56,725 bases of DNA from Caldifarciminota bacterium. Its GTDB lineage: Bacteria > Hydrothermota > Tepidihabitantia > Tepidihabitantales > DTDR01. The stretch lies in assembly GCA_025060715.1 (NCBI GenBank), contig JANXBG010000009.1:1-56725 (forward strand), given 5' to 3'. Of this stretch, positions 32,853 through 56,725 are shown piece by piece. The notes under the pieces were generated by a model. That model searched no databases and was not told where the DNA came from. It saw only the letters and a program-made list of their open reading frames with translations. How positions within the stretch are numbered: the stretch's first letter is position 1; each line of letters begins with the position of its first letter. The position numbers and the translations under genes are program-made.

Positions 32853-32876
32853 TGGTCTCTCCAGGCTTGACTATAA

Positions 32877-32904
32877 ACTATAACAAAATAATAGATATTG
32901 TCAA
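32877..32904 (-). promoter_or_regulatory. Promoter for the AraC-type regulator operon
   Basis: On the minus strand TTGACA (32904-32899), a 16-bp spacer and TATAGT (32882-32877), with a leader of about 18 bases carrying GGAGAG before the ATG at 32852. Unlike most promoters here, it is followed by a Shine-Dalgarno. Confidence 0.68.
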
Positions 32905-33008
32905 ATTAGTTATAATAAAAAATTGGTAATTTTTTACAAAAATTAATAAGTTTTTGATTTTTAATAACTTATCTTAAAATAGAAAATTTGACAATTTCTT
33001 AACTTTTG

Positions 33009-33032
33009 TAAGTTATTTAAATAAATAACTTA
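33009..33032. repeat. 24-bp perfect palindrome upstream of the AraC-type gene
   Basis: TAAGTTATTTA, two bases, then its exact inverse. Further AATAAC/AACTTA half-sites lie to the left (about 32945-32973). The position, about 105 bp upstream of the AraC-type promoter and just after murA, suits an operator or an A/T hairpin at the end of the murA transcript. Confidence 0.55.
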
Positions 33033-33065
33033 GCTAACTAATAAAAATTTATAAATTTTTAATTT

Positions 33066-34331: not shown

Positions 34332-35208
34332 AAATTGGCCTTTCGGAAAGATATTTCTTTCGTCTTTCTTCAACCAAAAGGATCTCTTCCCTTAAGAAAT
34401 TAATAAAGGAGTTTAAAAAATCATTTATTTCGGAACTAAAAATTTCATTTTCTCTGATTATCAATTTTTCACTTGTTGTTTCTAGAATCAAATTTTTAAT
34501 TTGATAATCCCATAAAGTAATCTCAATTAACATTTCTTTTTTTCTTTCATTATAATAACAATGAGCCTGCCGAATTAGTTCCTTCTCTAAACCAATTACC
34601 TTCATTTTGTTAAATAAATAATAAGGAACCTCATAATTTAAATCTATAGCTAAGGAAGTTAAAAAAAGTTCTCTTCTCAATTTTTCTATCTCTTCTTCTA
34701 AATTGGGAAAATTTATTTTTATAGAAAGAAGGTTTTTATTAAAATTTAAATTTTCCCATTCAAAATTTTTCATCTTTGGTCGAAGTTTTAAATAAGCATA
34801 ATAAAGCTGTAAAGAATATTCATCACCAATTCGGTCATTATGCCATTTCACGTCAACCGTATACATTCCAAATTGTTTTATCAATCTCACTTGCATATGA
34901 TAATTGTCAATTTCCCGAGAGAGAAGAATCCCGCCATAAGCCGGATTATCAGAAGTTATCATATCTTCAGCTGCCTCCAATTCTTTTATCAATTGTTCCG
35001 AAATAAACCAAGCAGCCGCATGTTGGTATCTTTTTGAAAAATTAATTAAATCCGCAGCAACACTAATTACCGCCTCTTTATCTTGACAACAACCAAGGAT
35101 TATGGGAATACTTATATGGATTGAAGAATCTTCTCTATCCGGACCAAAAGTTATCTCTTCTAAAATGGCGATGGTTTCTAAATCTCTTGGTTTTATTGCT
35201 AGTATCAT
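34318..35208 (-). CDS. Unknown cytoplasmic protein, 296 aa
   Basis: No family is recognised. There is no signal peptide or membrane segment. The protein begins MILAIKPRDLETIAILEEITFGPDRED and has a predicted helical, charged C-terminal half (about 160-296). It is co-transcribed with murA (overlap 14 bases) and has a leaderless promoter that interlocks with that of the divergent lipoprotein gene. Confidence 0.65.
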   Translation of the reverse strand: MILAIKPRDLETIAILEEITFGPDREDSSIHISIPIILGCCQDKEAVISVAADLINFSKRYQHAAAWFISEQLIKELEAAEDMITSDNPAYGGILLSREIDNYHMQVRLIKQFGMYTVDVKWHNDRIGDEYSLQLYYAYLKLRPKMKNFEWENLNFNKNLLSIKINFPNLEEEIEKLRRELFLTSLAIDLNYEVPYYLFNKMKVIGLEKELIRQAHCYYNERKKEMLIEITLWDYQIKNLILETTSEKLIIRENEIFSSEINDFLNSFINFLREEILLVEERRKKYLSERPIYGQR

Positions 35209-35214
35209 ATTTCT

Positions 35215-35242
35215 ATTATAATTGACTAAAAAAATATTTCAA
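35215..35242 (-). promoter_or_regulatory. Leaderless promoter for the unknown gene-murA unit
   Basis: On the minus strand TTGAAA (35242-35237), a 16-bp spacer and TATAAT (35220-35215), 6 bases before the ATG at 35208. It shares DNA with the opposite promoter at 35222-35250. Confidence 0.68.
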
Positions 35243-35250
35243 GATATAAT
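35222..35250 (+). promoter_or_regulatory. Leaderless promoter for the signalling operon
   Basis: TTGACT (35222-35227), a 17-bp spacer and TATAAT (35245-35250), 7 bases before the ATG at 35258. It overlaps the opposite promoter at 35215-35242. Confidence 0.75.
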
Positions 35251-35257
35251 TTAAAAA

Positions 35258-36235
35258 ATGTTAATCCTCTTTCTTATTTTATTTCTCTTTTCCTGTTCAC
35301 CGGAAAGGGAAAATATTTATGACCCAAAAAGTAAATATTATAAAAATACTGGAACTCTTTTAGGCTATGTTTTTGATAATAAAGAAATAAAGATAAAAGA
35401 TGCCGAAATTACCATTTTTGGTGAAAGGAAGAAAAATCTATTAATTACCAAAACGGATAATAATGGCTTTTTTCAATTTGTTGATATTCCTCTTGATTCT
35501 TATCTTATTAGTATTTATAAAGAGAATTATCAAAAATTAAATTATTATAAAAAAATTAATAATCACCAAATTGAAACATTATACTTTCGACTTAACCCTT
35601 TGCCTTATTTAAAAAGTTGTCAAATAAGAAGTTATTACGAGGAAAGGTATATCCTACCCGAATCTTTATCTTTTAATATTACCTGTGAAATCTTTGATGA
35701 GAATTTAAAAGAGGTTTATCTTTTATTGCCCACTAACGATACTTTTTATCTCAACCATTTAAGAAATCAAATTTATGAAAGAACCATAACTAAAGAAATG
35801 GTAAATGGTAATTTTGATGATTTAGTGGGCAAAAGTTTTTTAGTTTATTTAATCTCTAATTTTTCTGATACCTTAATTTACGAAACTTCCCCATTAATAA
35901 GAATTATTAGAGAATTACCACAACAGATTTCACCAATTAATGGTGAAATAACATCTTTTAAGCCAACCTTAATTTTTTCTCAACCTCCTCTTTATTTCTC
36001 TTATACTTATTTTATAAAAATTTATTATCTATTAAATAACCGTTTTCCTATTCTTTGTTATCAAGATAGTTTAATCCCTAAAGAGGATACTGTTTTTTTT
36101 ATAGAGGATTCACTGATTGATGGTTTATATCTTTGGCGGGTGGGGATAAAAGATGAATTTGGTAATAGGGCATTATCAAAAGAGGCATTATTTGAAGTGA
36201 TTGGTAAAAAATTATGTTGGAAAGAAAAGCCTTAG
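35258..36235 (+). CDS. Lipoprotein with carboxypeptidase regulatory-like domain
   Basis: A 325-aa protein. The signal ends in the lipobox LFSC (Cys13), followed by SPERENIYDPKSKYY, a start typical of Bacteroidetes/WOR-3-type surface lipoproteins. Residues about 28-110 form a CarboxypepD_reg-like beta domain (GTLLGYVFDNKEIKIKDAEITIFG ... TDNNGFFQFVDIPLDSYLISI). The rest is beta-rich and ends in a fibronectin-like unit (YLWRVGIKDEFGN). It is the first gene of a five-gene overlapping operon. Its role may be surface sensing for the downstream kinase and activator, which is inference from position. Confidence 0.75.
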   Translation: MLILFLILFLFSCSPERENIYDPKSKYYKNTGTLLGYVFDNKEIKIKDAEITIFGERKKNLLITKTDNNGFFQFVDIPLDSYLISIYKENYQKLNYYKKINNHQIETLYFRLNPLPYLKSCQIRSYYEERYILPESLSFNITCEIFDENLKEVYLLLPTNDTFYLNHLRNQIYERTITKEMVNGNFDDLVGKSFLVYLISNFSDTLIYETSPLIRIIRELPQQISPINGEITSFKPTLIFSQPPLYFSYTYFIKIYYLLNNRFPILCYQDSLIPKEDTVFFIEDSLIDGLYLWRVGIKDEFGNRALSKEALFEVIGKKLCWKEKP

Positions 36236-42231: not shown

Positions 42232-42260
42232 GGGCAGGGATATAGCTCCCTGCCCTTTTT
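42232..42260 (+). terminator. Rho-independent terminator
   Basis: A 9-bp perfect stem, GGGCAGGGA/TCCCTGCCC, with loop TATAGC is followed by TTTTT. It lies directly before the promoter of the corrinoid operon. Confidence 0.93.
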
Positions 42261-42262
42261 AT

Positions 42263-42290
42263 TTGACATAAAATATTTTTATATTATTAT
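42263..42290 (+). promoter_or_regulatory. Promoter of the corrinoid methyltransferase operon
   Basis: TTGACA (42263-42268), a 16-bp spacer and TATTAT (42285-42290). It predicts a leader of about 112 bases that ends in AAAAGGAGGAAG before the ATG at 42410. Confidence 0.7.
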
Positions 42291-42328
42291 ATTTTTAAAT
42301 GTTTATTTTAAGATGAAATTTAAATTAT

Positions 42329-42377
42329 CAAGCCGGGTGCTTGGAAAACTTTTCTTTCTTTTCTTTTTAATTTTCCA
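42329..42377 (+). promoter_or_regulatory. Leader with two mutually exclusive hairpins
   Basis: Hairpin 1 is CAAGC-CGGGT-GCTTG (42329-42343). Hairpin 2 is TGGAAAA (42342-42348) with TTTTCCA (42371-42377). They share bases 42342-42343, so both cannot be fully formed. The pyrimidine-rich loop between could pair partly with the purine-rich ribosome-binding site. No known riboswitch consensus was recognised. Confidence 0.35.
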
Positions 42378-42409
42378 GAATAAAAAATTTTTATTAAAAG
42401 GAGGAAGAA

Positions 42410-43201
42410 ATGATTAGAAGAGATTTTACCATTAAAGATGTACAAGAAGTTTATCAAGGGGTAGGTGGCAAACTTTGGGAATTAGTGATGGGTGAACAGA
42501 TTCATTCAGGTGGAGAGAGGGCTACTGATATTTTGGCACAAGCCTTGGAGTTAAAACCAGGGATGCTTGTTTTGGATATTTGCAGTGCCTTGGGTGGTCC
42601 AGCGAGACAATTGGCAAAAAAATATGGGGTTAAAGTGATTGGTTTGGATGCTACCCCTCGGATGGTAGAAGAGGCTATTAAGAGGACTGAGAAAGAGGGG
42701 CTAAGTAATTTAGTAGAATATGTTTTAGGAAACGCCTTAGATTTACCCTTTAAAAAAGAGACCTTTGATGTGGTTTGGGGTCAAGAAGCTTGGTGTTATA
42801 TCACTGATAAAAGGAGATTGATTAATGAAGCCTATCGGGTTTTAAAACCAAAGGGAAAAATTGGTTTTACTGATTGGATTATTACTGGTGAACCTTCACC
42901 TTCTGAACTTCAAGAGCTTTTAGATTCAATGACTTTTCCTTATATGGAGACCTTTGAGGGTTATCAAAAACTTTTAAAAGAAGCTGGTTTTGAAATTTTG
43001 ATTGCCCGCGATGAGACTGAAGATTTTCATAACTATTTTATTGAATACCAACAGAAAGTGACGGGGGAATTAAAAGATGTTATTCTTAATGAGTTTGGTA
43101 AAGATATCTACGATTTTGCCTATTATCTTGTAAATCTTTGGGAGAAGGCATCCAGAGAACACAAGGTTGGTAGAGGGTTTTATGTAGCCATTAAAAAGTG
43201 A
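42410..43201 (+). CDS. SAM-dependent class I methyltransferase
   Basis: A 263-aa protein. Motif I is VLDICSALGGPARQLA (about 55-70), acidic motif II VIGLDATPRM, motif post-I NALDLPF and motif for substrate entry VWGQEAWCYITDKRRLINEAYRVLKPKGKIGFTDWI. The start GEQIHSGG is like that of small-molecule N-methyltransferases such as sarcosine/dimethylglycine methyltransferase, but the substrate cannot be assigned. As first gene of an operon with a corrinoid protein and zinc methyltransferases, it may methylate, or recycle, the methyl-bearing small molecule. Its stop overlaps the next GTG by 4 bases. Confidence 0.85.
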   Translation: MIRRDFTIKDVQEVYQGVGGKLWELVMGEQIHSGGERATDILAQALELKPGMLVLDICSALGGPARQLAKKYGVKVIGLDATPRMVEEAIKRTEKEGLSNLVEYVLGNALDLPFKKETFDVVWGQEAWCYITDKRRLINEAYRVLKPKGKIGFTDWIITGEPSPSELQELLDSMTFPYMETFEGYQKLLKEAGFEILIARDETEDFHNYFIEYQQKVTGELKDVILNEFGKDIYDFAYYLVNLWEKASREHKVGRGFYVAIKK

Positions 43202-43827
43202 AAAAAGATATTTATGAAAAATTAGCAAATGCAGTTTTTAGTCTCAATCTCTCTTTAACAGAAAAAATATCTCAAGAGATTGTTAAAAAAAATTTAGATT
43301 GTCAAAAAGGTATTTTAGAAGGGCTGATTTTAGGAATTAAAAAAGTTTCTGATTATTTTGCCAAAGGTAAATATTTTATTCCTGAAGTCCTTTGTGCAGC
43401 GGAATGTTTTTATAAAGGTTTTGAAATATTGAAAGCCAATTTGAAAAATCCTTTACCTAATAAGGGAAAAGTTATTTTGGCAGTAGTTTATGGTGATATC
43501 CACGATATTGGTAAAAATATTGTAAAGTTAATGGCCGAAATGGATGGTTTTCAAGTGATTGATTTAGGTAAAGATTGCCCAAGAGAAAAGATTTTAGAAG
43601 CAGCGATTAAAGAAAAACCAGAGATAATTGGACTTTCTGCCTTAATGACAACAACAATGTTAGAGATGGAGAAGGTGATAAAATTGTTAAAAGAAAATAA
43701 CGTAAAAGCAAAAGTGGTGATTGGTGGTGCGCCCACATCCCAACTTTTTGCCCAAAAAATTGGTGCCGATGGTTATGCTCCTGATGCGGTTTCTGGTGTC
43801 AAACTTTTTAACCAATTAATTAAATGA
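43198..43827 (+). CDS. Methyl-carrying corrinoid protein (MtaC/MtbC/MttC type)
   Basis: A 209-aa protein with the two domains of methyltransferase corrinoid proteins. The helical cap (about 1-85) includes ILEGLILGIKKVSDYFAKGKYFIPEVLCAAECF. The B12-binding Rossmann domain has YGDIHDIGKNIVKLMAEMDGFQVIDLGKDCP, where D100-x-H102-x-x-G105 provides the lower-axial histidine to cobalt, then GLSALMTTTM and VVIGGAPTSQLFAQKIGADGYAPDA. It carries a methyl group between two methyltransferases. The GTG start overlaps the previous stop; the next gene overlaps by 4 bases. Confidence 0.94.
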   Translation: MKKDIYEKLANAVFSLNLSLTEKISQEIVKKNLDCQKGILEGLILGIKKVSDYFAKGKYFIPEVLCAAECFYKGFEILKANLKNPLPNKGKVILAVVYGDIHDIGKNIVKLMAEMDGFQVIDLGKDCPREKILEAAIKEKPEIIGLSALMTTTMLEMEKVIKLLKENNVKAKVVIGGAPTSQLFAQKIGADGYAPDAVSGVKLFNQLIK

Positions 43828-44750
43828 TTGAAAATATCAAAGTTTTTCCCTTAGTGGTTGCTAATCATGCCGCTTATTTAACTGGTCAAAAAGAAAAAGA
43901 GCTTTATTGTGATGGTGAGAAACTGGGAAAGGCACTTTTATATTGTCAAAACTATTATGGTTATGATGCGGTAATTGTTTTTTCTGATGTCTATGTCGAG
44001 ATGGAAGCAATGGGTGGAAGATTAGAATATTTAGAAGATAGTCCACCCGAGATAAAAGAATATCCAAAATTAATAAAAATTGCTAATCCCCAAAGAGACG
44101 GTAGAATAAAAGAGATATTAAAAGCAGCTATTTTTTTAAAAAGGCATCTAAAGGATTTTCCTATTTTTGTTTCTTTAAAAGGTCCTTTCTCTTTAGCTAC
44201 CCTTTTAATTGGTGTGGAAAAATTTTTCTTAATGCTTATTAAAAATGAAAAGAAGGCAAAAGAGATTATTAATATCGCTTTTGAAAACCAATTAAGATTT
44301 TTAAAGGCAATATTAGAGATTGATTGTATTCCTTTTATTGGCGATCCTTTTGCTTCGGGCTCTTTAATTGGAGCAAAACTTTTTGAAAATTATGCCTTAC
44401 CACCTCTTAAAGAACTTATAAAAGAATGTTTAATCGCTGGTTTACATATTTGTGGCGATACTAAAAATCTCTTGCCCTTAATAATTGAGACAAAGGCAAA
44501 GATTATCTCCTTAGAAACTGATGTTAGTTTTGCTAAAAGATATTTTCCTGAAGATATTTATCTAATGGGTTCAGTGCCTACTCATTTATTGGTAGAGGGG
44601 GATATTTTTCAAGTAAAAGAGGAATGCGAGAAAGAGATATTGGCAGGTGGTAGAAACTTTATTTTATCAACAGCCTGTGATGTTCCCAAATATGCAAAAA
44701 AGGAGAATGTAAAAACAATGGTTGATGTTGGCCATTTTTATAAAAATTAG
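43824..44750 (+). CDS. Zinc-dependent corrinoid methyltransferase, MtaA/MtbA (UroD-like) family, copy 1
   Basis: A 308-aa TIM-barrel protein of the uroporphyrinogen decarboxylase superfamily. The zinc ligands of the methyltransferase branch are present: His208 and Cys210 in LHICGD, and Cys285 in STACDVP. The arginine cluster of true UroD is not seen. FSDVYVEMEAMGG and the FIGDPFASGSLIGAKLFENYALP stretch are typical. It moves methyl between the corrinoid protein and a thiol or other acceptor/donor. It lies between the corrinoid protein and the activator, fully coupled by overlaps. Confidence 0.9.
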   Translation: MIENIKVFPLVVANHAAYLTGQKEKELYCDGEKLGKALLYCQNYYGYDAVIVFSDVYVEMEAMGGRLEYLEDSPPEIKEYPKLIKIANPQRDGRIKEILKAAIFLKRHLKDFPIFVSLKGPFSLATLLIGVEKFFLMLIKNEKKAKEIINIAFENQLRFLKAILEIDCIPFIGDPFASGSLIGAKLFENYALPPLKELIKECLIAGLHICGDTKNLLPLIIETKAKIISLETDVSFAKRYFPEDIYLMGSVPTHLLVEGDIFQVKEECEKEILAGGRNFILSTACDVPKYAKKENVKTMVDVGHFYKN

Positions 44751-45946
44751 TGAGAAAAACTTTATTACATTTTCTTGCTGAAAGGGGGTATTATTTAAAA
44801 AATTTTTGTGGTCGGGGAATTTGTAAAAAATGTGAAATTGTTTTTAATAACAAAAAAGTTCTTGCCTGCCAAACCGAAATTTCCAAAATAAGAAGTAGTG
44901 AAAAATTGTTAAAAGCAATCAAACTTTCTCCCTCTTTTCTTTATTTTTTTGATAAAAAATTTGACACATCCGACTGCGTAGCAATTGATTTAGGTACTAC
45001 TAATATTAGGATAAGTTATCAAAAGAAAAAAAGATTTATTAAAAAAATTTTTACTAATCCCCATTTTCTTTTTGCTTCTGATATTTTCTCCCGAATAAAT
45101 ATCTATCCATTGTTAAAAAAATATCCTTTAATAGAATATTTGAAAATAAAGGAGTTAAAGAAGGGTATTATTGTGGGCAATCCGATTATGTATCATTTTC
45201 TGCTTAATAAAATATCTTCTTCTTTGGGAAGATATCCTTACAAAATGTTAATTCCAATAGGAGAGGTTATCTATCCAATTGAGAATAGGAAAGAGGTTCA
45301 GATGGTGCCAATTATCAGTAGTTTTATTGGTGGTGATATTGTTGCTGGAATATTATATACTAATCTTCACAAAAGGAAATCCTTTTCTTTATTGATTGAT
45401 TTAGGCACTAATGGTGAGATTGTTTTGGGAAATAGGGATAAGATTTTTGCCTCTTCCTGTGCTGCTGGTCCGGCCTTTGAAGAGAGGTTTCATTATTATG
45501 GCTTTAAAATTATCTCCTATTTAGCCTATTTACTAAAGGAAAAGAAAGTTGATAAATCAGGAAGGTTAAAAGAGAAGAATTCTTGGCTTTCCCAGAAGGA
45601 TATAAGAGAACTCCAATTAGCCAAATCCGCGATTGCCAGTGGTATTATAATCCTTTCCCAATTTTCTCAAATTCCTCTTAATCAAATTGAAAGGGTTTAT
45701 CTTACCGGAAATTTTGGAGCAAAGATAAATCCCAGAGATTTGTATACCCTTGGTATATTGTCCAAAGAAATTAATGGCGAGATCTTTTCTTTTCCTGATT
45801 TACCATTAAAGGGTGCAGAGAAAATTCTTAAAGAAAATTCTTTAATGAAAGAATGTTTAGAGATTGTTAAAAAAACTGAGACCTTCTTTTTACCTGAAAT
45901 TAAAGAATTTTCTAAAATTTTTATTAATCAAATCTCTTTTCCTTGA
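44750..45946 (+). CDS. RACo-like ATP-dependent corrinoid activator (ASKHA ATPase with [2Fe-2S] start)
   Basis: A 398-aa protein. A shortened plant-type ferredoxin domain comes first with C20-X4-C25-X2-C28-X11-C40 (NFCGRGICKKC ... ACQT); the usual first beta hairpin is missing. Then the ASKHA ATPase fold of RACo/RamA-like (DUF4445) proteins: VAIDLGTTNIRISY (phosphate 1), SFIGGDIVAGIL, LLIDLGTNGEIVLGN (phosphate 2), CAAGPAFEERF and YLTGNFGAKINPRDLYTLGIL. RACo reduces Co(II) to Co(I) on corrinoid proteins with ATP. The GTG start overlaps the previous stop by one base. It could also serve the two dehydratase-like subunits that follow. Confidence 0.9.
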   Translation: MRKTLLHFLAERGYYLKNFCGRGICKKCEIVFNNKKVLACQTEISKIRSSEKLLKAIKLSPSFLYFFDKKFDTSDCVAIDLGTTNIRISYQKKKRFIKKIFTNPHFLFASDIFSRINIYPLLKKYPLIEYLKIKELKKGIIVGNPIMYHFLLNKISSSLGRYPYKMLIPIGEVIYPIENRKEVQMVPIISSFIGGDIVAGILYTNLHKRKSFSLLIDLGTNGEIVLGNRDKIFASSCAAGPAFEERFHYYGFKIISYLAYLLKEKKVDKSGRLKEKNSWLSQKDIRELQLAKSAIASGIIILSQFSQIPLNQIERVYLTGNFGAKINPRDLYTLGILSKEINGEIFSFPDLPLKGAEKILKENSLMKECLEIVKKTETFFLPEIKEFSKIFINQISFP

Positions 45947-46896
45947 TGCGGATTGGCTATTTTTGTTTATACACACCAATTGAGCTTCTTAAAGCTTTAT
46001 CTTTAAAACCGATTAGATTAATTCCTTCTCAAAAATTTGATTTAACAAGCAAATATTTTCGTTATGATGCTTGCCCTTTTTTAAAAAACCTTTTTAGTAA
46101 TCTTATAAATAAATCTTGGAAGACTGATGGAATTTTTTTATTATCTCTTTGTGATGGTCAAAGAAGATTAGGTGAAATTTTAAAAAGAGAGATTCCCAAT
46201 TTAAAAGTTTATGAAATTTATTTTCCCCGAACTTATAATTTTTCTGCCTTTAAATTGTATTACGAAGAGATGCTTAATTTTATTAAAACCTTTGAGAAGG
46301 ATTTAAATTTAATTAACAAAAGATTAAAAGAAGAGGTAAAAATTTTAAACCAAAAAAAGAAGGATTTAATAAAAGTGGTTAATAATCTTAATTTTTTAGA
46401 TAAGGCAGAAATTATAAAAAATTTTTGGGAAACGGGAGAGATACCTTCTTTAAATTTTTTAAAACCAAGAATAATTGAAAAAGAAAAAATCCTTCTTTTG
46501 GGAAGTTATTTTACTCCTTTGGATTGGGGTATTATTAGTATGATTGAAAAATATTTTACAATCGTTGCTGATAGTTTCTGCACTGTTTCTCGGGGAATTG
46601 ATTTTTATCCGCCGGTTAGCAATCTAAAAAATTATCTCTTTTTCTATTTTTCTAAAATTCCCTGTATTTTACGAAGACCAAATAGAAATTTTTATAACTA
46701 TTTAAAAAGAAAAATAAGAAAATATGAAATAAAAAAGATAATTCTTTATTCTTTAAAATTTTGTGATAACTTTTCTTTTGAGAAGGAAAGTTTAAAAAGC
46801 TTTTTGAGGTTGCCGGTTTTGAATATTGAAAGTGATTATTCTGAGGTAAATACTTTACAAATGGAAACAAGAATCGCTGCTTTTTATGAGAGTTGA
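45946..46896 (+). CDS. 2-Hydroxyacyl-CoA dehydratase D-component-like iron-sulphur protein, subunit 1
   Basis: A 316-aa protein of the HgdB/BcrB-like family. Cys positions follow the family: YDACPFLKN, LSLCDGQRRLGE (family SCD..RR) and LKFCDNFSFEKE (family KFCDP), with further Cys in ADSFCTVSRG. The end IESDYSEVNTLQMETRIAAFYE is the conserved family finish. Such proteins hold a [4Fe-4S] or double-cubane cluster and do ATP-driven, radical or low-potential reductions. The ATG at 45946 overlaps the previous stop by one base. The usual HgdC-type ATPase partner is not in this operon; the RACo-like protein may fill that place. Confidence 0.82.
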   Translation: MRIGYFCLYTPIELLKALSLKPIRLIPSQKFDLTSKYFRYDACPFLKNLFSNLINKSWKTDGIFLLSLCDGQRRLGEILKREIPNLKVYEIYFPRTYNFSAFKLYYEEMLNFIKTFEKDLNLINKRLKEEVKILNQKKKDLIKVVNNLNFLDKAEIIKNFWETGEIPSLNFLKPRIIEKEKILLLGSYFTPLDWGIISMIEKYFTIVADSFCTVSRGIDFYPPVSNLKNYLFFYFSKIPCILRRPNRNFYNYLKRKIRKYEIKKIILYSLKFCDNFSFEKESLKSFLRLPVLNIESDYSEVNTLQMETRIAAFYES

Positions 46897-48232
46897 TTTT
46901 TCTACTTGGAATGAACTTTTTCAAAATATTCCCGAAAGGATAATTAAAAGATATAAATATTATAAAAGAAAAGAAGATTGGGCAAGGTATTTATCACCAC
47001 CCCAGACTTTTGCTATTTATGGAATGAGACATTTGATGAGTTTAAAATTTGATTCCTCTCTGGAATGTTTAAGATTATGGGGATTTGTTTTTAATGAGAC
47101 CGAAAGGTTATTTCGGGCAAAACAGATAAATAAAAAAATTATTGCCGTGATGGGCGATTTGGGAGGAATTCCACCGATTATTTATTCTTTTAAATCTTTA
47201 ATTGGTTTCTATCCCGATTGTTTGTGGTGGCAGCCTTTCTTTTCCGAAAATTATAACCTTTTTGAAATTACTGCCAAAGCAAGCTTTCCTGAAACCTCTT
47301 GTTATTCCCGGGTTGTTTATGCTACTTTCTTAAAAAAAGCCTATTTTCCTAAACCGGATTTAATTATTGCCTCTACCGGTGCTTCTTGTGATGATTATTC
47401 TTGTGTGATGCAAAAAATTAACAACCTTTTTTATAAAAATACCCAATTTATCTGGTTAGAAATACCGCCAAGAAAAGAAAAAAGAGAAGGAGCAATAAAA
47501 TTATTAAAAGAGAATTATCAAAAAGTGGCAAAGATTTTAAGTGAAATTGCAGAAGAAAAGTTAACTATGGAAAAACTAATTTTGGGTATAAAAAGAGTAA
47601 ATTTAATAAGAAGAAATTATCAAAAATTAAAAGAGTTGGTAGGAAGAAGCGAAATTGCCCCGCTGGGCTCCTTAGAAATGTTATTATTAGAATTTGGTAA
47701 TCTCCATTTTTATTCCGATATTTTTGAATGGCAAAAAATTCTTTTAGGAATATTAAATTTGGTAAAGAAAAGGATTAAAAATAATGAAGGGGTATTAAAT
47801 AAAGAGAATAAAAAGATTGTTTGGGCAACGCCACCGGCAGATCCTTTGTATCTTATTTATTTGGAGGATAATGGTGCTCGGATTGTAGGTAGTGAATATA
47901 TTATTAATCAAGCATTACAAATAATTCCGATAGAAAAATATAAAAATCCCTTTTTTGCCCTTGCCGAAAGTTATCTTTCTGCCTCTTTGATTGGCAAAAC
48001 AAAAGAAAGAGCAGAATTGATAATTAAGGAAATAAAAAAATATCAGGCAAAAGGAGTTATTATTTCCCAAATATTTGGTGCTTCCCATTGTGCTTATGAA
48101 ACAGAAATATTGAAAGAAGAGATTGAAGAAAAGGCAAGGGTTCCGGTTTTAATTATTGATATTCCTCACCCATCCTCCGAAATACCTTTACAAACCAAAA
48201 CAAGAATTAATGCCTTTATTGAAAATTTATAA
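46886..48232 (+). CDS. 2-Hydroxyacyl-CoA dehydratase-like iron-sulphur protein, subunit 2
   Basis: A 448-aa protein, homologous in architecture to subunit 1 but longer. Family signs are YLSPPQTFAIYGMRHLMSL near the start, STGASCDDYSCVMQKI (two Cys), WATPPADPLYLIYLEDNGARIVGSEYI, FGASHCAYETEILKEEIEEKARVPVLIIDIPHPSSEIPLQTKTRINAFIENL. With the preceding gene it forms a likely heterodimer like HgdA/HgdB. The substrate is not known. It overlaps the preceding gene by 11 bases and the next by one base. Confidence 0.82.
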   Translation: MRVDFSTWNELFQNIPERIIKRYKYYKRKEDWARYLSPPQTFAIYGMRHLMSLKFDSSLECLRLWGFVFNETERLFRAKQINKKIIAVMGDLGGIPPIIYSFKSLIGFYPDCLWWQPFFSENYNLFEITAKASFPETSCYSRVVYATFLKKAYFPKPDLIIASTGASCDDYSCVMQKINNLFYKNTQFIWLEIPPRKEKREGAIKLLKENYQKVAKILSEIAEEKLTMEKLILGIKRVNLIRRNYQKLKELVGRSEIAPLGSLEMLLLEFGNLHFYSDIFEWQKILLGILNLVKKRIKNNEGVLNKENKKIVWATPPADPLYLIYLEDNGARIVGSEYIINQALQIIPIEKYKNPFFALAESYLSASLIGKTKERAELIIKEIKKYQAKGVIISQIFGASHCAYETEILKEEIEEKARVPVLIIDIPHPSSEIPLQTKTRINAFIENL

Positions 48233-49281
48233 TGGAAATTTTAACTTCCCGAGAAAGGTTTAATTTATTAGTTTTTGATGAAGTTCCAGATAGAATATTA
48301 GTTTTTCCTTTAATTACTAATCATAGTGCTTATATTAGTAATTATTCAATAAAAGATTATTATACCAAAGGAGAAATTCTTGCTCAAGCCCAAATAAATG
48401 CTTATGAAGTTTATCAAACTGATTTTCTTTCGGTGTTCTCCGAAGTAGGAATTATTGCCGAAGCCTTAGGAAGTTATTTTGAATATCCCGAAGAAGATTT
48501 GCCCAAATTAAAAAAACCTTTATTTTCTAATTTAAAGGATTATTGTGAAAGAAAATTAGATTGGGAATATAACGAAGGAAAAGGAAGGTTTTATCTTTAT
48601 TTTGATGCAATAAAAATTTTATATAAAACTCTTGGTGATATTTTACCTATTCTTGCTTATGTACCAGCCCCCTTTACCACTTTGGCTTTACTTTTTGAAC
48701 AAACGGAAATATTAAAAGAAGTAAGTTTTCCTAATAGAGAGAAAAGAAAAATTTTAAAAGAACTCTTATCATTAATTACTAATTTTACTATTCAATTTAT
48801 AAAAAGTATTATTAATTATGGTGCCTTGCCAATTATTGTTGATCCTTTAGCATCAGGAAGCGTGATTTCTCCAAAAACTTATAAAAATTTTGCTTTTCCC
48901 TACGAAGAAAAACTTATTAACTATCTCCATCGTTATGATTTAGATGTGATTTTACATATTTGTGGTAATACCCAAATTTATTTAAAAGAATTGAACGAAT
49001 CTACCGCCGATTTATTAAGTTTAGATAAAATTAATTTAATATCGGCAAAAAGGTTTTTAGGAGATAAATTTCGTTTAATTGGTAATTTTGATACTACCGA
49101 AATCCTTCTTTTATCGCCGGAAGAAATTAGAAAAAAAGTAAGGAATTTGGTTTTAAAAATGAAAGATAACAAAAAAGGATATATTTTAGCCACAGGTTGT
49201 GAGGTCCCTTTTTCTACTCCTAAGGAGAATCTTTTTGCTTTTATTGAGGAAGGAAAGAGATGGGGAAAGTATAAATTTTAA
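48232..49281 (+). CDS. Zinc-dependent corrinoid methyltransferase, MtaA/MtbA (UroD-like) family, copy 2
   Basis: A 349-aa TIM-barrel protein similar in layout to the copy at 43824: FPLITNHSAYISNYSIKDYY, FSEVGIIAEALGSYFEYPEED and IVDPLASGSVISPKTYKNFAFP. Zinc ligands are His242 and Cys244 (LHICGNT) and Cys323 (ATGCEVP). Two such methyltransferases with one corrinoid protein suggests that one acts on the methyl donor and the other on the acceptor. Its start overlaps the stop of the preceding gene. It is the last gene of the operon. Confidence 0.9.
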   Translation: MEILTSRERFNLLVFDEVPDRILVFPLITNHSAYISNYSIKDYYTKGEILAQAQINAYEVYQTDFLSVFSEVGIIAEALGSYFEYPEEDLPKLKKPLFSNLKDYCERKLDWEYNEGKGRFYLYFDAIKILYKTLGDILPILAYVPAPFTTLALLFEQTEILKEVSFPNREKRKILKELLSLITNFTIQFIKSIINYGALPIIVDPLASGSVISPKTYKNFAFPYEEKLINYLHRYDLDVILHICGNTQIYLKELNESTADLLSLDKINLISAKRFLGDKFRLIGNFDTTEILLLSPEEIRKKVRNLVLKMKDNKKGYILATGCEVPFSTPKENLFAFIEEGKRWGKYKF

Positions 49282-49317: not shown

Positions 49318-50148
49318 ATGGTAGAAAAATTAAATTTGATCAATAAATATACTAGATTATTTTTGAGGTTAGTTGGAAATTATGAAAAAACTAAACTAAA
49401 AAAAGAAAATCTATCAATTTTGGAGACAAATCTTAAAAAGATAAAAGAATATTGTGAGAAATTAGAATTTAACGATTTAAAAAATCTTGTTTCTGAATGG
49501 ATAAAAAAAGAAGAGGAGTGGCTAAAGAATGCTTTTATTGAAAAACAGGAGAGCTTTGGCCGAGAATTGAAAGAGGAATTAGAAAAAAATAATTTATCTT
49601 TTAGTGGAATTTTCCCTAATATAAAAATAAATATCTTTACTTTAGAAATAAATTTTGATTTAAATAGCTGTCAACTTTTTTATGGACCAAAAATAGAAAA
49701 GTTAAAAGCAAAAATTCCTTTACATGCTCCAACAATTATAAAAATTTTAAAGGATTATCTTAACTATTTGAATTATCCCTTCAATCCCAATGAATATTTT
49801 AAAAAACTTCTTTCTGCTTATGAACGGTTTATCTCTTTTCAAAGATTAAATTTTGGTGAAAAGATTTTTCTAACTGATTTGCTTTCCGAACTTATCTTTT
49901 TATTACAAAAAAAGGAATTTTATTTAGACCCAAAAAGGGAGAATTTTAAGGAATATTCCCGAATAAATTTTAGTTATGATTTATACCGATTAAAGACTTT
50001 TTTAGGAAACCAATTAGAAAATTATTCCTTTAAATTATGGATTGCTCCATTTGATGCCACTCTGGATAGGAGAAAGTCAATCTGGATCCCAAATAATGAG
50101 ACTGGTGAAGGAACTTATTTTTCTTATATTTCTTTTGAAAAGATATGA
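49318..50148 (+). CDS. Unknown protein encoded with tandem DUF2791 ATPases
   Basis: A 276-aa cytoplasmic protein of no recognised family. The first about 95 residues are charged and helical, coiled-coil-like (LSILETNLKKIKEYCEKLEF, FGRELKEELEKNN). The middle has two strands (IKINIFTLEINFDLNSCQLFYGPK), then helices (HAPTIIKILKDYLNYLNYP) and a C-terminal YSFKLWIAPFDATLDRRKSIW. It overlaps the first ATPase gene by 4 bases, so it is likely a partner subunit. Confidence 0.65.
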   Translation: MVEKLNLINKYTRLFLRLVGNYEKTKLKKENLSILETNLKKIKEYCEKLEFNDLKNLVSEWIKKEEEWLKNAFIEKQESFGRELKEELEKNNLSFSGIFPNIKINIFTLEINFDLNSCQLFYGPKIEKLKAKIPLHAPTIIKILKDYLNYLNYPFNPNEYFKKLLSAYERFISFQRLNFGEKIFLTDLLSELIFLLQKKEFYLDPKRENFKEYSRINFSYDLYRLKTFLGNQLENYSFKLWIAPFDATLDRRKSIWIPNNETGEGTYFSYISFEKI

Positions 50149-51431
50149 TAAATAAAGAATTGGCAAAAGCAATTGTTCATAAATTGGGTTCCTATGGTAC
50201 ACCACCGGAATTTGGTTTGGAATTTTATACGGTGGGTTTAGGAAAATATTTGACAGTAATTGAAGAGGAATACTTTAAGGATTATTTAAAATTAAAGCTT
50301 TCTTCTTTTAAATTGATTGTTGGTAATTATGGTGGTGGAAAGACCCATTTTTTATATTGTTTAAGAAAAAAAGCGATGGAGAATAACTACTTAACCAGTT
50401 ATGTTTCTCTTTCACCGGTGGAATGTCCTTTTGATAAATTAGAACTTGTTTACAAAGTGATTGCCTTAAATTTAATGGCACCCAAAACTTCCGAAGATAT
50501 CAGTTTTGACACTTTTTATTATGAGCGAGGAATTGATAATGTTATTAAACTTTGGTATCAAAAAATAAAAGAAAAAGTTTTAAAAAAAGAGGATTTCTAT
50601 AATTATCTGGAAGGTTTAAGTGGTGTGGAATCAATTTCTTATTTAAATGCCTTAAAGGGAAGTTTTGAGGCCTTAGTAAGGGAAGATTATGAAAGCTTTG
50701 AAAATCTTATTCAATATTTAAAAGGAGAAGAGATTACAAAGGATATTCGGGGAAAATATCGGATTTCGGAAAGATTAGATAAGAGTACGGCTTTTCGTTT
50801 TATTCGTTCTTTAGCCCAATGGGGACATTTAATTGGCTATAATGGGCTTGTCTTATTTTTTGATGAAGCTGAGAGGGGTTTAAGTATTTCCAGTTCCCGG
50901 GATAAAAGAAGGGCATTAGATAATTTAAGGCAGATTATTGATGAATGTGGCAATGCCCGGCTTCCGGGAGTAATGTTTTTCTATGCTGTTACTGATGAGA
51001 ATTTGATTTTAGAAGGAAGTGGTGGTGTTTATGAGGCATTAAAACAAAGGTTAAGAAGCACCTTTACTGCTACTAATCCTACTGGTGTAAAAATCAATCT
51101 GGAGGCAATTGAAAAAAAGCCGGAAGAGTTTTTATATGAACTTGGTTTGAAACTTGCCCGATTATTTGAAATTGCTTATGATATTACTTTTAATGATAAG
51201 ATATTAAAAGCAACTATTGAAGTTTTATCTAAAGCCTGTTTAACAACTTTTGCTTTAGATATTAGTTTTAGAAGGTTATTTGTTTTAGGAATTATTGAAG
51301 CCTTTTTTAGATTAAAAGAGAGAAATTTTAAATCTCCTCTTTCTCAAAAAGAAGCTGAAGAGATTTTAAAAACCTCTTTAAAAAAGATTGAGGAAGAAAA
51401 AGAAAAAGAAATAGAAAGTGAAGAGTTTTAA
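50145..51431 (+). CDS. DUF2791 / BREX BrxC-BrxD-like P-loop ATPase, copy 1
   Basis: A 428-aa AAA-like ATPase. Walker A GNYGGGKT is at residues 60-67 and Walker B VLFFDEAERG has Asp240-Glu241. It shows the typical order of this family: KLIVGNYGGGKTHFLYCLR, SYVSLSPVECPFDKLELVYKVI, LAQWGHLIGYNGLVLFFDEAE, and an arginine finger region LKQRLRSTF. Relatives are components of BREX defence loci. No other BREX gene (pglZ, pglX, brxA/B, lon-like brxL) is nearby. It is coupled to a second ATPase of the same family by a 1-base overlap. Confidence 0.8.
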   Translation: MINKELAKAIVHKLGSYGTPPEFGLEFYTVGLGKYLTVIEEEYFKDYLKLKLSSFKLIVGNYGGGKTHFLYCLRKKAMENNYLTSYVSLSPVECPFDKLELVYKVIALNLMAPKTSEDISFDTFYYERGIDNVIKLWYQKIKEKVLKKEDFYNYLEGLSGVESISYLNALKGSFEALVREDYESFENLIQYLKGEEITKDIRGKYRISERLDKSTAFRFIRSLAQWGHLIGYNGLVLFFDEAERGLSISSSRDKRRALDNLRQIIDECGNARLPGVMFFYAVTDENLILEGSGGVYEALKQRLRSTFTATNPTGVKINLEAIEKKPEEFLYELGLKLARLFEIAYDITFNDKILKATIEVLSKACLTTFALDISFRRLFVLGIIEAFFRLKERNFKSPLSQKEAEEILKTSLKKIEEEKEKEIESEEF

Positions 51432-52741
51432 TGGAAGCGATTAAAAGAGTAATTGTTTCTCATCCAGTTTTTGGTGAAGGGGAAGTTATTTCTTCCCGTT
51501 TAAACGGTCATGAACTTCTTGTTCATTTTAATTCAGGCTTAAAACTTTGGGTATTAAAAAAGAGACTCCTTTTTATTTCTGAGACGGATGCTTTAGAGAA
51601 AAAATTTGATAGAATAAAGGCAAAAAGAATATGTGAGGCGTTAAGAATGGGAATTGTTCCTCGTCAGGATTGTGAAGATTTTACCTTTGGTCGGGAAGAA
51701 GAGGTAAATACGCTTAAAAAAATAATAGAGAAATTAAAGGAAGGAAAAGGGGATACCTGTTTGATAGAAGGTGAATATGGAAGTGGCAAAACCCATTTGT
51801 TAGAATATTTATACCATTATGCCTTAAAAGAAGGGGTTTGTGTTTCTAAAATTACTTTAACTCCTGATGAAGTTTCTCCACATAGACCAAAAAGATTTTG
51901 GAAAGAATTTGTTTTTAATCTTAAATTTTTAAAAGATGACCGGGAATACGGTTTTCGGGATTTATTAAGACAGGCAACAAATTTAAATCTTTATGATAAT
52001 ATCTTCTTTTCTAAACTTTTACCTAAATTAAAAAATATTGATGAAGGAAGCATAAAAAGTGAAGTCCTGTGGCAATGGTTAGAGGGAGAGAGTACTAAAG
52101 AGTATGCAGTTTATCTTACTAATAAATTTCGGATAAAAGGGGGAATAAGAATTCCCGCTTTGTATGATTTTTCTACGGCCAGTGATTTTTATTGTTATCT
52201 TATTTCTTCTCTTTCTTATATTGCTCATCAATTAAATCTTTATGGAATTTTATTATTAATTGATGAGGCAGAGACGGTTGCCCATTTATGGCGATTTCAA
52301 GATTTTCTAAAAGGATTAAATTTCTTATATGGGCTTATTAGAGTTTGTTATAATGACCAAGAGTTAAAAAAGATTGATAACCAAATGATTCATAATAAAA
52401 TGAGACCAACACCTTATATTTATAGAGATGCTTATTTAAGTATGGTAATGGCAACAACACCATTAAGCTATAATTATGAATATCTCAGGTTAACTACCCT
52501 TTTTAAAAATAAAATAACTTTAAAAAATTTAAAAATAAAAGACCTTTATGAATGTTTTTATACTTTATATAATATTTACAAAACTTGTTATCCTAATTTT
52601 CAACTGTTAGAAAGGGAACAGCGAAAAATTTTAGAAGAAGGGATTGAAAGAAGTTTAGGAATAAGAGATTTTTTAAAGTTTGTAATTGAAGTTTTTGATA
52701 TTTATCGCCACACAAGTTCCTTAGTATTTATTAATAAATAA
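51431..52741 (+). CDS. DUF2791 / BREX BrxD-like P-loop ATPase, copy 2, with Tudor-like N-terminus
   Basis: A 436-aa ATPase. Residues 5-50 (VIVSHPVFGEGEVISSRLNGHELLVHFNSGLKLWVL) look like the small Tudor/SH3-type domain found at the end of UvrD/PcrA helicases. Then the BrxD-like start RICEALRMGIVPRQDCEDFTFGREEEVNTLKKII, Walker A GEYGSGKT (114-121) and Walker B ILLLIDEAET (Asp278-Glu279). It differs from copy 1 in the N-terminal domain, so the two probably form a mixed assembly. The AAAGGAGGAAAT after its stop is the ribosome-binding site of the next gene. Confidence 0.8.
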   Translation: MEAIKRVIVSHPVFGEGEVISSRLNGHELLVHFNSGLKLWVLKKRLLFISETDALEKKFDRIKAKRICEALRMGIVPRQDCEDFTFGREEEVNTLKKIIEKLKEGKGDTCLIEGEYGSGKTHLLEYLYHYALKEGVCVSKITLTPDEVSPHRPKRFWKEFVFNLKFLKDDREYGFRDLLRQATNLNLYDNIFFSKLLPKLKNIDEGSIKSEVLWQWLEGESTKEYAVYLTNKFRIKGGIRIPALYDFSTASDFYCYLISSLSYIAHQLNLYGILLLIDEAETVAHLWRFQDFLKGLNFLYGLIRVCYNDQELKKIDNQMIHNKMRPTPYIYRDAYLSMVMATTPLSYNYEYLRLTTLFKNKITLKNLKIKDLYECFYTLYNIYKTCYPNFQLLEREQRKILEEGIERSLGIRDFLKFVIEVFDIYRHTSSLVFINK

Positions 52742-53808: not shown

Positions 53809-56725
53809 ATGATAAAAAGTATTTATAGGAATTTATGTCCTAATTGTGGGGGAGAAATAACTTCGGAAAGATTAAAAGAACATCTCTTTTGCGAAAAGTG
53901 TGAAAAAGAAGGTGAGGAATTAAAGAAAATCAGGGAGCTTAAAGAAAAGTTAAAAAAATGGGAAAGCCATTTTGAAAAATATGTTAAAAGCAAGCCTTGG
54001 GGATTACAGAGCACTTGGGCAAAAAGGGTTTTTAATGGCTCCTCCTTTGCCCTCTTAGCGCCTACTGGTGTCGGTAAAACATCTTTTGGTCTTTCTATCG
54101 CTAGTTTTCTTTTAAACTTTGGCCAAAAATCTTATATTATTGTTCCCACAAAATTATTAGTAGACCAAACTTTTGAAAAATTGAAGAATTTTGGTGTAAA
54201 AGAAGAAGATATTCTTGCTTTTAATGGAGGTTTAAAAAAGAAGAAAAAAGAAAGACTCCGAGAAGGAGATTTTAAAATTTTAGTTACTACTTCTATGTTT
54301 CTTTACAAGAATCAAGAGATCATACCCAAAGATTTTAGCTTTATTTTTGTTGATGATGTAGATTCTTTTTTAAAAACTGCTAAAAATATTGATAAAGTTT
54401 TATATCTTCTCGGTTTTAGTCAAGAAGATATATTAAAAACCTTTACTTTGATAAAATTGCGGGGAAAAAAAGAAAAAAGTGAAGAAGATTTAAAAAAAAT
54501 AGAAGAATGCCTCTTAGAACTGAAAAAAATCAAAGAAAATATCAAAGGAGTTTTAGTGGTGTCTTCCGCTACCGCTAATCCCCGTTCTTCCCGAATAAAA
54601 CTTTTTAGAGAATTGCTTGGTTTTGAAGTGGGTATTCCTACCTTTTATCTGAGAAATATTGTTGACACCTACACCGAAGAGAAATCTTTGATTGATTGGA
54701 TTAAGAGATTAGGAAAAGGAGGTTTGCTTTTTTTACCAAGTGATAAAGGGAAGGAAAGTATTGATGAAATTATTAAAATTTTAGAAAAAAATAATATCAA
54801 AGCCCTTTCTTACGAAGAAATAAAGGAAGAAAATTTAGAATTATATCGGAGAGGAGAGATTGATATTTTAGTAGGCATCGCCAGTTTCCGAAATCCCTTA
54901 GCCCGAGGATTTGATATGCCTGAGGTTTGCCGTTATGCTATTTTTTATGGTGTTCCTAAAATTATTATCTCTTTACAATTTGAGTCTAATCTTTCTCATT
55001 TATTATGGGCTCTTTCCTCCATACGCCCTTTTATCGTTAAAAAGTTAGAAGGATATACTCAGAAAATTAACAGTTGGCTTTTGCAATTAAGAAAATATCA
55101 AAATCTGACTGAAGAATTTATTAATCAACGGAAGAATTTAAAAAAGAAGATAAATCAATTAAGGGAAGAGATTTCTCAATTTTTAACTAAACCTGAAATT
55201 ATTGAATTTTTAAAAACCTCGGAAGAGATAACTTTGCGATGGAGTGATGAAGGTTATTTAATGGTTGTTTCGGATGTTACCGGATATTTACAGGCAAGTG
55301 GTAGAGTATCAAGAATGTATGCTGGTGGTATCACCAAGGGGCTTTCGTTAATAATTATTGATGACAAAGTTGCTTTTAACCATTTAAAAAGAAAAATAAG
55401 ATGGTTTAGTGACGAAATAAATTTTTTACCAATAGAAGAGGTTGATTTACCAAAAATTATTGCTGAGATTGATTTGGATCGAGAAAAAATAAAAGAAGTT
55501 TTATTAAATAGGAAACCAATAGAAACAAAGGAATTATTAAAACCGATTTTAATTGTTGTGGAATCGCCTAATAAAGCAAGAACTATTGCTAATTTCTTTG
55601 GCAAACCGATAAGGAGGAGAATTGGTGAGTATGATATTTATGAAGTCTCAATTGAAGATAAGTATTTAATGATTGCTGCTTCTTTTGGCCATATTTTAGA
55701 CCTTGCCACTCAAGGTGGTTATTATGGTGTTATTTTAGATGGTGAAATTGTGCCCATTTATGAGCCGATAGAGGGAAAGGAAGAAATAATTAAAACATTG
55801 AGAAAAGCATCTTTAGAAGTTGAGCAAGTATTAATTGCTACTGATCCTGATACGGAGGGAGAAAAGATTGGTTGGGATATTAAAGAGCTTTTAAAGCCTT
55901 ATATTAAAGAAATTAAGAGAATGGAATTTCACGAAGTTACTAAAAAGGCAATCCTTAAAGCAATTAAAGAACCAAGGGATTTTGATTTGAATTTGATCAA
56001 AGCACAAATTTTAAGAAGAATTTCTGACCGATGGATTGGCTTTGAATTTTCTAAATTTCTTCACCGAGCCTTTAGTAATCCAACACTTTCAGCCGGCCGT
56101 GTCCAAACGCCGGTGTTGGGTTGGATTATACAAAGAGAAAAAGAGTTTAGAGAAATTATCTATCGGGTTTTTGTTAATATTGAAAAAAATAATAAAAAAT
56201 TAAGGTTAAACTTTACTTTTGATGAAGAGAAAATTGCTCTCAATTTTTATCATAATCTTAAAGAGATAGAAATAAAAAAATTAACAGAAAGAGAAGAAAT
56301 AGAATATCCACCGCCACCTTATCGTACGGATACTTTATTAAAAGATGCTAGTGATTTCTATCGTTTTTCTTTGCCCAAGTCAATGGAGCTAGCCCAAACT
56401 TTATTTGAGCTGGGTTATATAACCTATCACCGCACTGACTCTGTTAGAGTTTCTGATACAGGGGTTAGTATTGCCAAAGAATTTATTAAGGAGGAGTTTG
56501 GAGAAGAATATTTTCAAAGAAAAACTTGGGCAGAGGGCGGTGCCCACGAATGTATTAGACCAACAAAATCTTTGGAACCAGAAGAACTTAGGTCAATGCT
56601 TTTAAGCGGTCAGATTGAAGGATTAAGCAAAGAACATCTTTTGCTTTATGAAATAATTTTTAAAAGGTTTATTGCCAGTCAAATGAAACCATTAAAAATA
56701 AAGATTTCTGATTACCTAATAAAAG
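53809..56725 (+). CDS. rgy: Reverse gyrase, 3' end cut by window
   Basis: The enzyme that introduces positive supercoils, the hallmark of hyper- and extreme thermophiles; 972 codons are seen and the gene runs off the right edge. Order: N-terminal zinc finger CPNCGG ... CEKC (10-35); helicase Walker A APTGVGKT (84-91), IFVDDVDSFL (DEAD-box position), SSATANPRS, GIASFRNPLARGFDMP, ASGRVSRMYAGG (helicase motif VI); topoisomerase IA from about 580 (VVESPNKARTIANFFG, toprim ATDPDTEGEKIGWDI) and catalytic Tyr873 in ITYHRTDS. The second zinc finger normally placed before the toprim ATDPDTEGE motif is missing (GVILDGEIVPIYEPIEGKEE). No clear promoter is visible in the 36-base gap, so it may be read from the upstream operon. 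Confidence 0.96.
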   Translation, partial: MIKSIYRNLCPNCGGEITSERLKEHLFCEKCEKEGEELKKIRELKEKLKKWESHFEKYVKSKPWGLQSTWAKRVFNGSSFALLAPTGVGKTSFGLSIASFLLNFGQKSYIIVPTKLLVDQTFEKLKNFGVKEEDILAFNGGLKKKKKERLREGDFKILVTTSMFLYKNQEIIPKDFSFIFVDDVDSFLKTAKNIDKVLYLLGFSQEDILKTFTLIKLRGKKEKSEEDLKKIEECLLELKKIKENIKGVLVVSSATANPRSSRIKLFRELLGFEVGIPTFYLRNIVDTYTEEKSLIDWIKRLGKGGLLFLPSDKGKESIDEIIKILEKNNIKALSYEEIKEENLELYRRGEIDILVGIASFRNPLARGFDMPEVCRYAIFYGVPKIIISLQFESNLSHLLWALSSIRPFIVKKLEGYTQKINSWLLQLRKYQNLTEEFINQRKNLKKKINQLREEISQFLTKPEIIEFLKTSEEITLRWSDEGYLMVVSDVTGYLQASGRVSRMYAGGITKGLSLIIIDDKVAFNHLKRKIRWFSDEINFLPIEEVDLPKIIAEIDLDREKIKEVLLNRKPIETKELLKPILIVVESPNKARTIANFFGKPIRRRIGEYDIYEVSIEDKYLMIAASFGHILDLATQGGYYGVILDGEIVPIYEPIEGKEEIIKTLRKASLEVEQVLIATDPDTEGEKIGWDIKELLKPYIKEIKRMEFHEVTKKAILKAIKEPRDFDLNLIKAQILRRISDRWIGFEFSKFLHRAFSNPTLSAGRVQTPVLGWIIQREKEFREIIYRVFVNIEKNNKKLRLNFTFDEEKIALNFYHNLKEIEIKKLTEREEIEYPPPPYRTDTLLKDASDFYRFSLPKSMELAQTLFELGYITYHRTDSVRVSDTGVSIAKEFIKEEFGEEYFQRKTWAEGGAHECIRPTKSLEPEELRSMLLSGQIEGLSKEHLLLYEIIFKRFIASQMKPLKIKISDYLIK

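Follow-up and report, generated by a model that had tools for sequence, protein, structure and literature searches.

Seven overlapping genes behind one promoter-like site

The window analyzed here is a 56,725-nt stretch of DNA that makes up the entire contig JANXBG010000009.1 (contig C86) of a 1.6-Mb Caldifarciminota genome (G000; assembly GCA_025060715.1). At positions 42410-49281 on the forward strand, it carries seven genes in which the original prediction, made from the sequence and its ORFs, had recognized an operon with one promoter and one leader, joining corrinoid methyl transfer to iron-sulfur proteins of the 2-hydroxyacyl-CoA dehydratase type. All seven open reading frames (ORFs) were confirmed at these coordinates, with overlaps of 4, 4, 1, 4, 11, and 1 bases at successive junctions, and the promoter-like site and the leader were recovered as well. 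Pfam, too, agreed with the family proposed for every gene. Using working names for the genes, the features are as follows.

42232..42255, + strand: terminator-like hairpin, a 9-pair stem followed by a T-run, dividing the operon from the upstream gene
42263..42290, + strand: promoter-like site TTGACA-16-TATTAT, 11/12 matches
42291..42409, + strand: 5′ leader with the Shine-Dalgarno sequence GGAGGA at 42400-42405
42410..43201, + strand: SAMMT, S-adenosylmethionine (SAM)-dependent methyltransferase resembling phosphoethanolamine and sarcosine-dimethylglycine methyltransferases (Pfam Methyltransf_11; NCBIfam; solved relatives)
43198..43827, + strand: CORR, methyl-carrier corrinoid protein of MtgC/MtbC type with DxHxxG motif (Pfam B12-binding and B12-binding_2)
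43824..44750, + strand: MLPa, MtaA-like methyltransferase of the UroD superfamily, zinc site H208-x-C210...C285 (Pfam URO-D)
44750..45946, + strand: RACo, RACo-like corrinoid reductive activase with a shortened ASKHA domain (Pfam RACo_C_ter and Raco_middle)
45943..46896, + strand: HGD5, DCCP/BzdN-like subunit (Pfam HGD-D; DCCP profile match, cysteine positions, predicted fold)
46886..48232, + strand: HGD6, HadBC/BzdO-like subunit (Pfam HGD-D; alignments, predicted fold)
48232..49281, + strand: MLPb, MtaA-like methyltransferase of the UroD superfamily, zinc site H242-x-C244...C323 (Pfam URO-D)

The sister genome G002 carries this operon as well, with its genes in the same order, and also keeps the hairpin, the promoter-like site, and the leader region. 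The promoter-like site lies in a region that overall shows no excess of such sites over shuffled sequence. Rfam gave no match within 30000-56725, and a leader riboswitch, whether for cobalamin or another ligand, was rejected on this ground. Compared to G002, dN/dS values range from 0.04 to 0.16, and all seven genes are therefore under purifying selection. As proposed, the two MtaA/UroD-type proteins both keep the His-x-Cys...Cys site, which is invariant or nearly so in 23 homologues each; a refinement is that, in the order SAMMT-CORR-MLPa-RACo-HGD5-HGD6-MLPb, they are not neighbors.

The gene set is conserved in several candidate phyla

Searching 100 genomes, we found HGD6 at strong scores in 38 including the window's own, that is, in 37/99 relatives; the weak remaining matches were other HGD-D proteins. 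The neighborhoods of 36 relatives display the gene order of the window as a fixed arrangement. CORR, HGD5, and HGD6 occur in all 36 of these loci, followed by MLPb (35), MLPa (32), SAMMT (27), and RACo (25). Scanning 84,980 species genomes with an HGD6 alignment returned 34 loci, the named ones mostly candidate division WOR-3/Stahlbacteria. Besides WOR-3, they represent LCP-89, Calditrichaeota, Tariuqbacter, Zixibacteria, a metagenome-assembled genome (MAG) labeled Planctomycetia, and unnamed bacteria, and as far as their contigs extend, the genes are arranged in this order too. None of these loci came from Firmicutes, only from WOR-3 and other candidate-phylum MAGs, in a scan that demands an exact peptide pattern and would miss more divergent relatives. 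The call to look for the same set in other genomes was thus answered in its favor, supporting a single functional set of genes, with the usual order preserved in relatives and beyond them. As to the Planctomycetia-labeled MAG (locus L078, PMZT01000246.1), its operon is 78-91% identical to WOR-3 copies, and the bin may be mislabeled or contaminated.

SAMMT and HGD6 have an identical distribution over the 100 genomes, SAMMT being present in 38/38 with HGD6 and in 0/62 without it. In some loci SAMMT does not adjoin the operon, and it is then found elsewhere in the same genome. This perfect co-occurrence makes SAMMT part of the system. Characterized relatives of SAMMT methylate small amines or hydroxyls. 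The protein is not a member of CpaM, the corrinoid-associated methyltransferase (39.6 bits versus a cut-off of 180).

RACo is the optional member of the operon

The RACo-like protein (398 aa) shares with the RACo/AcsV/RamA activases the [2Fe-2S] N terminus, the Raco_middle region, and an RACo_C_ter ASKHA domain with its phosphate motifs; Cys 20, 25, 28, and 40 are available for the [2Fe-2S] cluster, and the ASKHA motifs are kept. It differs from these activases in missing ~90 positions of the ASKHA C-terminal domain (Pfam positions ~39-126) and in having been lost in many relatives. The idea that the HGD pair might always co-occur with RACo failed when checked: in 11 pair-bearing genomes, RACo_C_ter finds nothing in the entire genome, single-contig assemblies (G031, G043, G047, G055) among them, and the presence of RACo on the HGD6 tree takes five changes, at least four of which are forced by well-supported branches. 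All loci without MLPa are also without RACo, and one 850-aa ORF in a Calditrichaeota locus (L101:2513-5062) matches both and appears to be a natural Mlp-activase fusion. In three relatives (L035, L050, L052), the activase apparently lacks the [2Fe-2S] domain. RACo therefore goes with the methyl-transfer genes and, in this group, is under less constraint than any other member.

A dedicated HgdC-type ATPase follows the operon in relatives

In 31/33 relatives with room on the contig, MLPb is directly followed by an eighth gene, usually overlapping it by 16 bases, which encodes a BcrAD/BadFG ATPase of the HgdC/DCCP-reductase type (TIGR00241). Only G016 and G002, the sister of the window's genome, depart from this. 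The original prediction had taken RACo as the only ASKHA ATPase and suggested that it may power the corrinoid and the HGD pair alike, or else that the pair may be the electron source for Co(I). RACo is the only such ATPase of the operon but not of the genome, which encodes two HgdC-type ATPases elsewhere, on contigs C1 and C22; its shared role is undercut by the dedicated gene in the relatives, whereas the electron-source alternative keeps some probability and gains interest from the repeated loss of RACo.

The C22 ATPase (249 aa) has no HGD neighbor, scores 199 bits with TIGR00241 (cut-off, 125), and retains the two cysteine motifs for the bridging cluster. G002 has a counterpart of it; G001, a sister genome without the operon, has none. 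In a tree, the C22 ATPase falls with the operon HgdCs, weakly (83/62) and on a long branch. We consider it the likely displaced partner of the HGD pair in the window's genome. Given the dedicated HgdC of relatives and this counterpart, RACo is not needed to explain how the pair is powered.

We rejected the other ATPase, that on C1 (317 aa), as the main partner, since it has two HGD-like neighbors of its own and occurs also in G001. With these neighbors (L069:9685-12564, - strand), it makes up a gene group apart from the operon that is widely conserved.

HGD5 and HGD6 resemble double-cubane and benzoyl-CoA reductase subunits

Both HGD proteins pass the PF06050 gathering score (133 and 136 bits versus 28.4), and their predicted folds match DCCP, BzdNO, and HadBC, with best Foldseek E-values of 2e-17 for HGD6 and 2e-18 for HGD5. 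Their closest solved relative is the DCCP (double-cubane cluster protein)/DCCP reductase system of Carboxydothermus (6ENO, 7YYL, 7YZM), whose partner ATPase also belongs to the BcrAD/BadFG family. HGD5 aligns with DCCP over its full length (E 1.6e-51, 323 profile positions, all six cysteines aligned); the profile alignment of HGD6 spanned the C-terminal half only. Whereas DCCP is a homodimer (PMC11971306), the operon encodes two divergent subunits, and membership in DCCP was ruled out for both, HGD5 and HGD6 scoring 107.1 and 92.3 bits with model NF040772 (cut-off, 350 bits). All specific models of the 2-hydroxyacyl-CoA dehydratase and benzoyl-CoA reductase (HAD/BCR) family likewise score far under their cut-offs. 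What DCCP-type double-cubane enzymes do physiologically is, in the literature, still regarded as unclear (PMC11971306).

True DCCP genes occur separately in some relatives. In L041, L053, L055, L065, L067, L071, and L072, such a gene is followed by its own HgdC, often beside selD or SAMMT; the two tested exceed the NF040772 cut-off. With its HgdC, this gene makes up a further double-cubane module within the selenium neighborhood.

The class I benzoyl-CoA reductase BzdNO and HadBC follow the same two-subunit plan, with a six-cysteine BzdN-like and a three-cysteine BzdO/HadB-like subunit served by a BzdPQ/HgdC-type ATPase. Compared to these, HGD5, at 317 aa, is the shorter protein, HGD6 features an N-terminal region of its own (~130 aa, conserved, no Pfam match) and a fourth invariant cysteine, and no CoA genes were seen near the operon among the window genes scanned. 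HGD5 Cys 8, 44, 70, 213, 241, and 274 are spaced like Cys 36, 73, 100, 263, 293, and 327 of BzdN, the ligands of its [8Fe-9S] cluster (PMC11971306). Among relatives, Cys 44, 70, and 274 never vary, and Cys 8, 213, and 241 have been lost two or three together in four genomes (L068 and L110 counted as one genome). From the alignment, we infer that the former three hold the proximal and the latter three the distal cubane, a division that the grouped loss fits. HGD6 has four invariant cysteines (112, 139, 168, and 402), three of which appear, by motif and order, to fit the [4Fe-4S] pattern of BzdO/HadB.

The methyl-transfer core matches most of the definition of type 1 mlp gene clusters

CORR is the only B12-binding_2 protein found in the window's genome, and the original prediction was borne out in that the operon encodes no substrate-specific MtaB/MttB/MtgB methyltransferase. 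It also knew of no described pathway with this set. We found no paper describing the exact set either (most subscription papers lay outside the search); the core, however, matches a cluster type already in the literature, the type 1 mlp gene cluster (MGC) of Kountz & Balskus 2023, which includes the Sdm dimethylselenide system of Methanococcus (PMC10418091). Mlps with His-Cys-Cys sites, read as specific for sulfur or selenium, are proposed to demethylate methyl-selenium and methyl-sulfur compounds onto a corrinoid protein, and for one Mlp2 of C. ljungdahlii a slow methylcobalamin:selenide methyl transfer was demonstrated (PMC10418091).

Type 1 MGCs are defined by at least two Mlps >25% identical to a characterized SCMT, by a corrinoid protein plus Ram/RACo, by co-directional genes <2 kb apart, by the lack of a tetrahydrofolate (H4folate) methylase within 20 kb, and by one protein each of the Mlp2 and Mlp3 clades. 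In local HMMER alignments with MtaA 4ay7, the best solved relative of MLPa, identity was 27.5% over 276 aligned residues for MLPa and 29.7% over 209 aligned residues for MLPb. Both Mlps have the His-Cys-Cys zinc site, a corrinoid protein and RACo stand alongside them, and the genes, all in one direction, overlap. No H4folate methylase was present among the window genes scanned, with three ORFs at 32439-36235 unscanned and the contig ending 7.4 kb downstream. The core thus appears to match most of the type 1 definition; type 1 MGCs and the operon also share a strong association with selenocysteine genes.

Several features set the operon apart. DCCP and DCCP reductase are listed as accessory genes in some mlp clusters (PMC10418091); here, the core itself comprises two HGD subunits, an HgdC dedicated to them, and SAMMT as an obligate companion. 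Conserved synteny is lacking among mlp clusters (PMC10418091), whereas here the gene order is conserved and RACo is optional. MarDK-type methionine salvage was ruled out, as the nitrogenase-like MarDK was not found in the window's genome.

The operon is associated with selenocysteine use

The original prediction had made no mention of selenium. Among the 100 genomes, selB or selD exceeded its curated cut-off in 37/38 genomes with the operon and in 25/62 without it (Fisher p 1.6e-9), or in 37/38 versus 15/27 within order and class only (Fisher p 4e-5); the genomes compared are related, such that these values overstate independence and are indicative only. A second set of 12 genomes, reached through the loci of the HGD6 scan and mostly outside WOR-3, has selB throughout (12/12). 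The association is also physical, with selA, selB, or selD in 20/36 operon loci. The window's genome encodes selB and also selD, the latter with a TGA in frame; its sister G001 has neither of the two genes and no operon.

Two further features were seen in the vicinity. A cysteine-rich protein of ~100 aa related to the FtrB double-selenoprotein family NF041072 (35.6 bits, under the cut-off) lies near the operon in 10/36 loci (e.g., L054:5520-5822). Several relatives (e.g., L042:1095-3823) have a sulfonate-type ABC transporter nearby, the binding protein of which resembles SsuA and SaoX, making it a candidate substrate importer.

A proposed selenium-linked corrinoid system with its own reductase

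Because the core appears to fit most of the definition of type 1 MGCs and the operon is near-exclusive to selenocysteine-using genomes, we regard the operon as a variant, linked to selenium, of the type 1 mlp corrinoid methyl-transfer cluster, extended by its own ATP-driven reductase of the HAD/BCR/DCCP family. We give this reading about an even chance of being correct. One Mlp would take a methyl group from a methyl-selenium, possibly methyl-sulfur, compound and place it on the Co(I) of CORR, and the other would hand it on to a thiol. Where present, RACo would return oxidized corrinoid to Co(I). HGD5, with a putative double-cubane [8Fe-9S] relay, and HGD6, with a putative catalytic [4Fe-4S] cluster, would form a heterodimer, fed with very low-potential electrons by the dedicated HgdC-type homodimer, a role that the C22 ATPase may play in the window's genome. 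Most likely, the pair would act reductively on these selenium compounds, e.g., by cleaving a C-Se bond, thereby freeing selenide for SelD. C-Se cleavage is a first guess, with corrinoid reduction as its main rival and methyl-sulfur salvage possible. Confidence is high for the gene set, the dedicated HgdC of relatives, and the selenium association, and low to moderate for the specific reactions, in what is comparative sequence work throughout.

Several points weigh against the selenium-linked reading, beginning with the relatedness of the genomes behind the association. In 15 relatives at the level of order or class, selB or selD occurs without the operon; selenocysteine users thus exist that lack it, and the operon is therefore accessory to, rather than required for, selenocysteine use. 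Conversely, one operon-bearing genome (G024, fragmented) shows neither selB nor selD. The Mlp2 and Mlp3 reference sequences lay outside the comparison with type 1 MGCs, the C22 ATPase has its weak placement and long branch, and in the 11 genomes missing RACo the corrinoid needs another reductant. Moreover, the substrates are putative.

Of the other explanations, the one that fares best is a methyl-sulfur or methionine-salvage system, with the link to selenium arising from a shared strictly anaerobic lifestyle or from co-transfer. His-Cys-Cys Mlps take sulfur as well as selenium (PMC10418091), and some loci include the sulfonate-type transporter. In addition, with CORR as the sole B12-binding_2 protein found and no recognizable MetH (methionine genes were otherwise not searched), the corrinoid could supply methionine. 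Set against this are the absence of MarDK-like proteins, which are typical of non-selenium clusters, the selA, selB, or selD neighbors in more than half of the loci, and selB in every genome of the second set, and we regard this explanation as unlikely, albeit worth keeping in view.

Alternatively, HGD5-HGD6-HgdC might itself be the ATP-driven reductant that generates Co(I) on the corrinoid, standing in for RACo or backing it up and having no substrate chemistry of its own. The repeated loss of RACo, at least four times, from genomes in which the corrinoid protein, MLPb, and the pair all stay would be explained in this way, as would the three activases apparently without a [2Fe-2S] domain. RACo is nevertheless kept in most pair-bearing genomes, where it would be redundant, and HGD6 retains the three-cysteine [4Fe-4S] pattern and the HadB/BzdO catalytic fold along with many further invariant residues, which suggests a substrate. 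Corrinoid reduction is also not known from DCCP or HAD proteins. On balance, a pure reductant role seems distinctly improbable.

An ordinary 2-hydroxyacyl-CoA dehydratase or aryl-CoA reductase that breaks down amino acids or aromatics and sits in the operon by chance would have the same superfamily and fold as the pair; with no CoA-transferase or CoA-ligase among those genes near the operon that were scanned in the window, a linkage to corrinoid and Mlp genes conserved across phyla, and the low scores with specific HAD/BCR models, it is very unlikely. Finally, we give hardly any credence to RACo as a single ASKHA ATPase driving both corrinoid and pair, which would suit its being the only such ATPase within this operon, given the HgdC gene behind MLPb in nearly all relatives with room for it, the likely counterpart elsewhere in this genome and G002, the dispensability of RACo but not of the pair, and the architecture of known HAD/BCR activators, dimers bridged by a [4Fe-4S] cluster, unlike the monomeric [2Fe-2S] RACo type (PMC6739815).

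Downstream neighbors

Downstream of the operon, an uncharacterized 276-aa protein (49318-50148) precedes two consecutive ATPases (50145-52741, + strand) with Pfam matches to BrxC/BrxD of BREX; the BrxD model reaches 126 bits (cut-off, 350), and no other BREX genes were present among the window genes scanned. A 972-aa ORF at 53809-56724 (+ strand, open at the contig end) appears, by eye, reverse gyrase-like, with helicase and type IA topoisomerase parts, and would point to a thermophilic host.

Implications for mlp gene clusters and corrinoid activation

What mlp gene clusters do is known only in part, and the operon, by tying a double-cubane-type pair, an ATPase, and SAMMT to a corrinoid system, turns this into a concrete hypothesis. 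Somewhat short of an even chance, in our estimate, is that HGD5-HGD6-HgdC constitutes a new ATP-dependent double-cubane enzyme in selenium metabolism, which may cleave C-Se or Se-Se bonds for the Mlp/corrinoid system or, in species without RACo, drive the reduction of the corrinoid to Co(I). If the latter version were true, this would be the first enzyme of the HAD/BCR/DCCP family to act on vitamin B12. Either way, the repeated loss of RACo provides a natural experiment on what else can activate a corrinoid.

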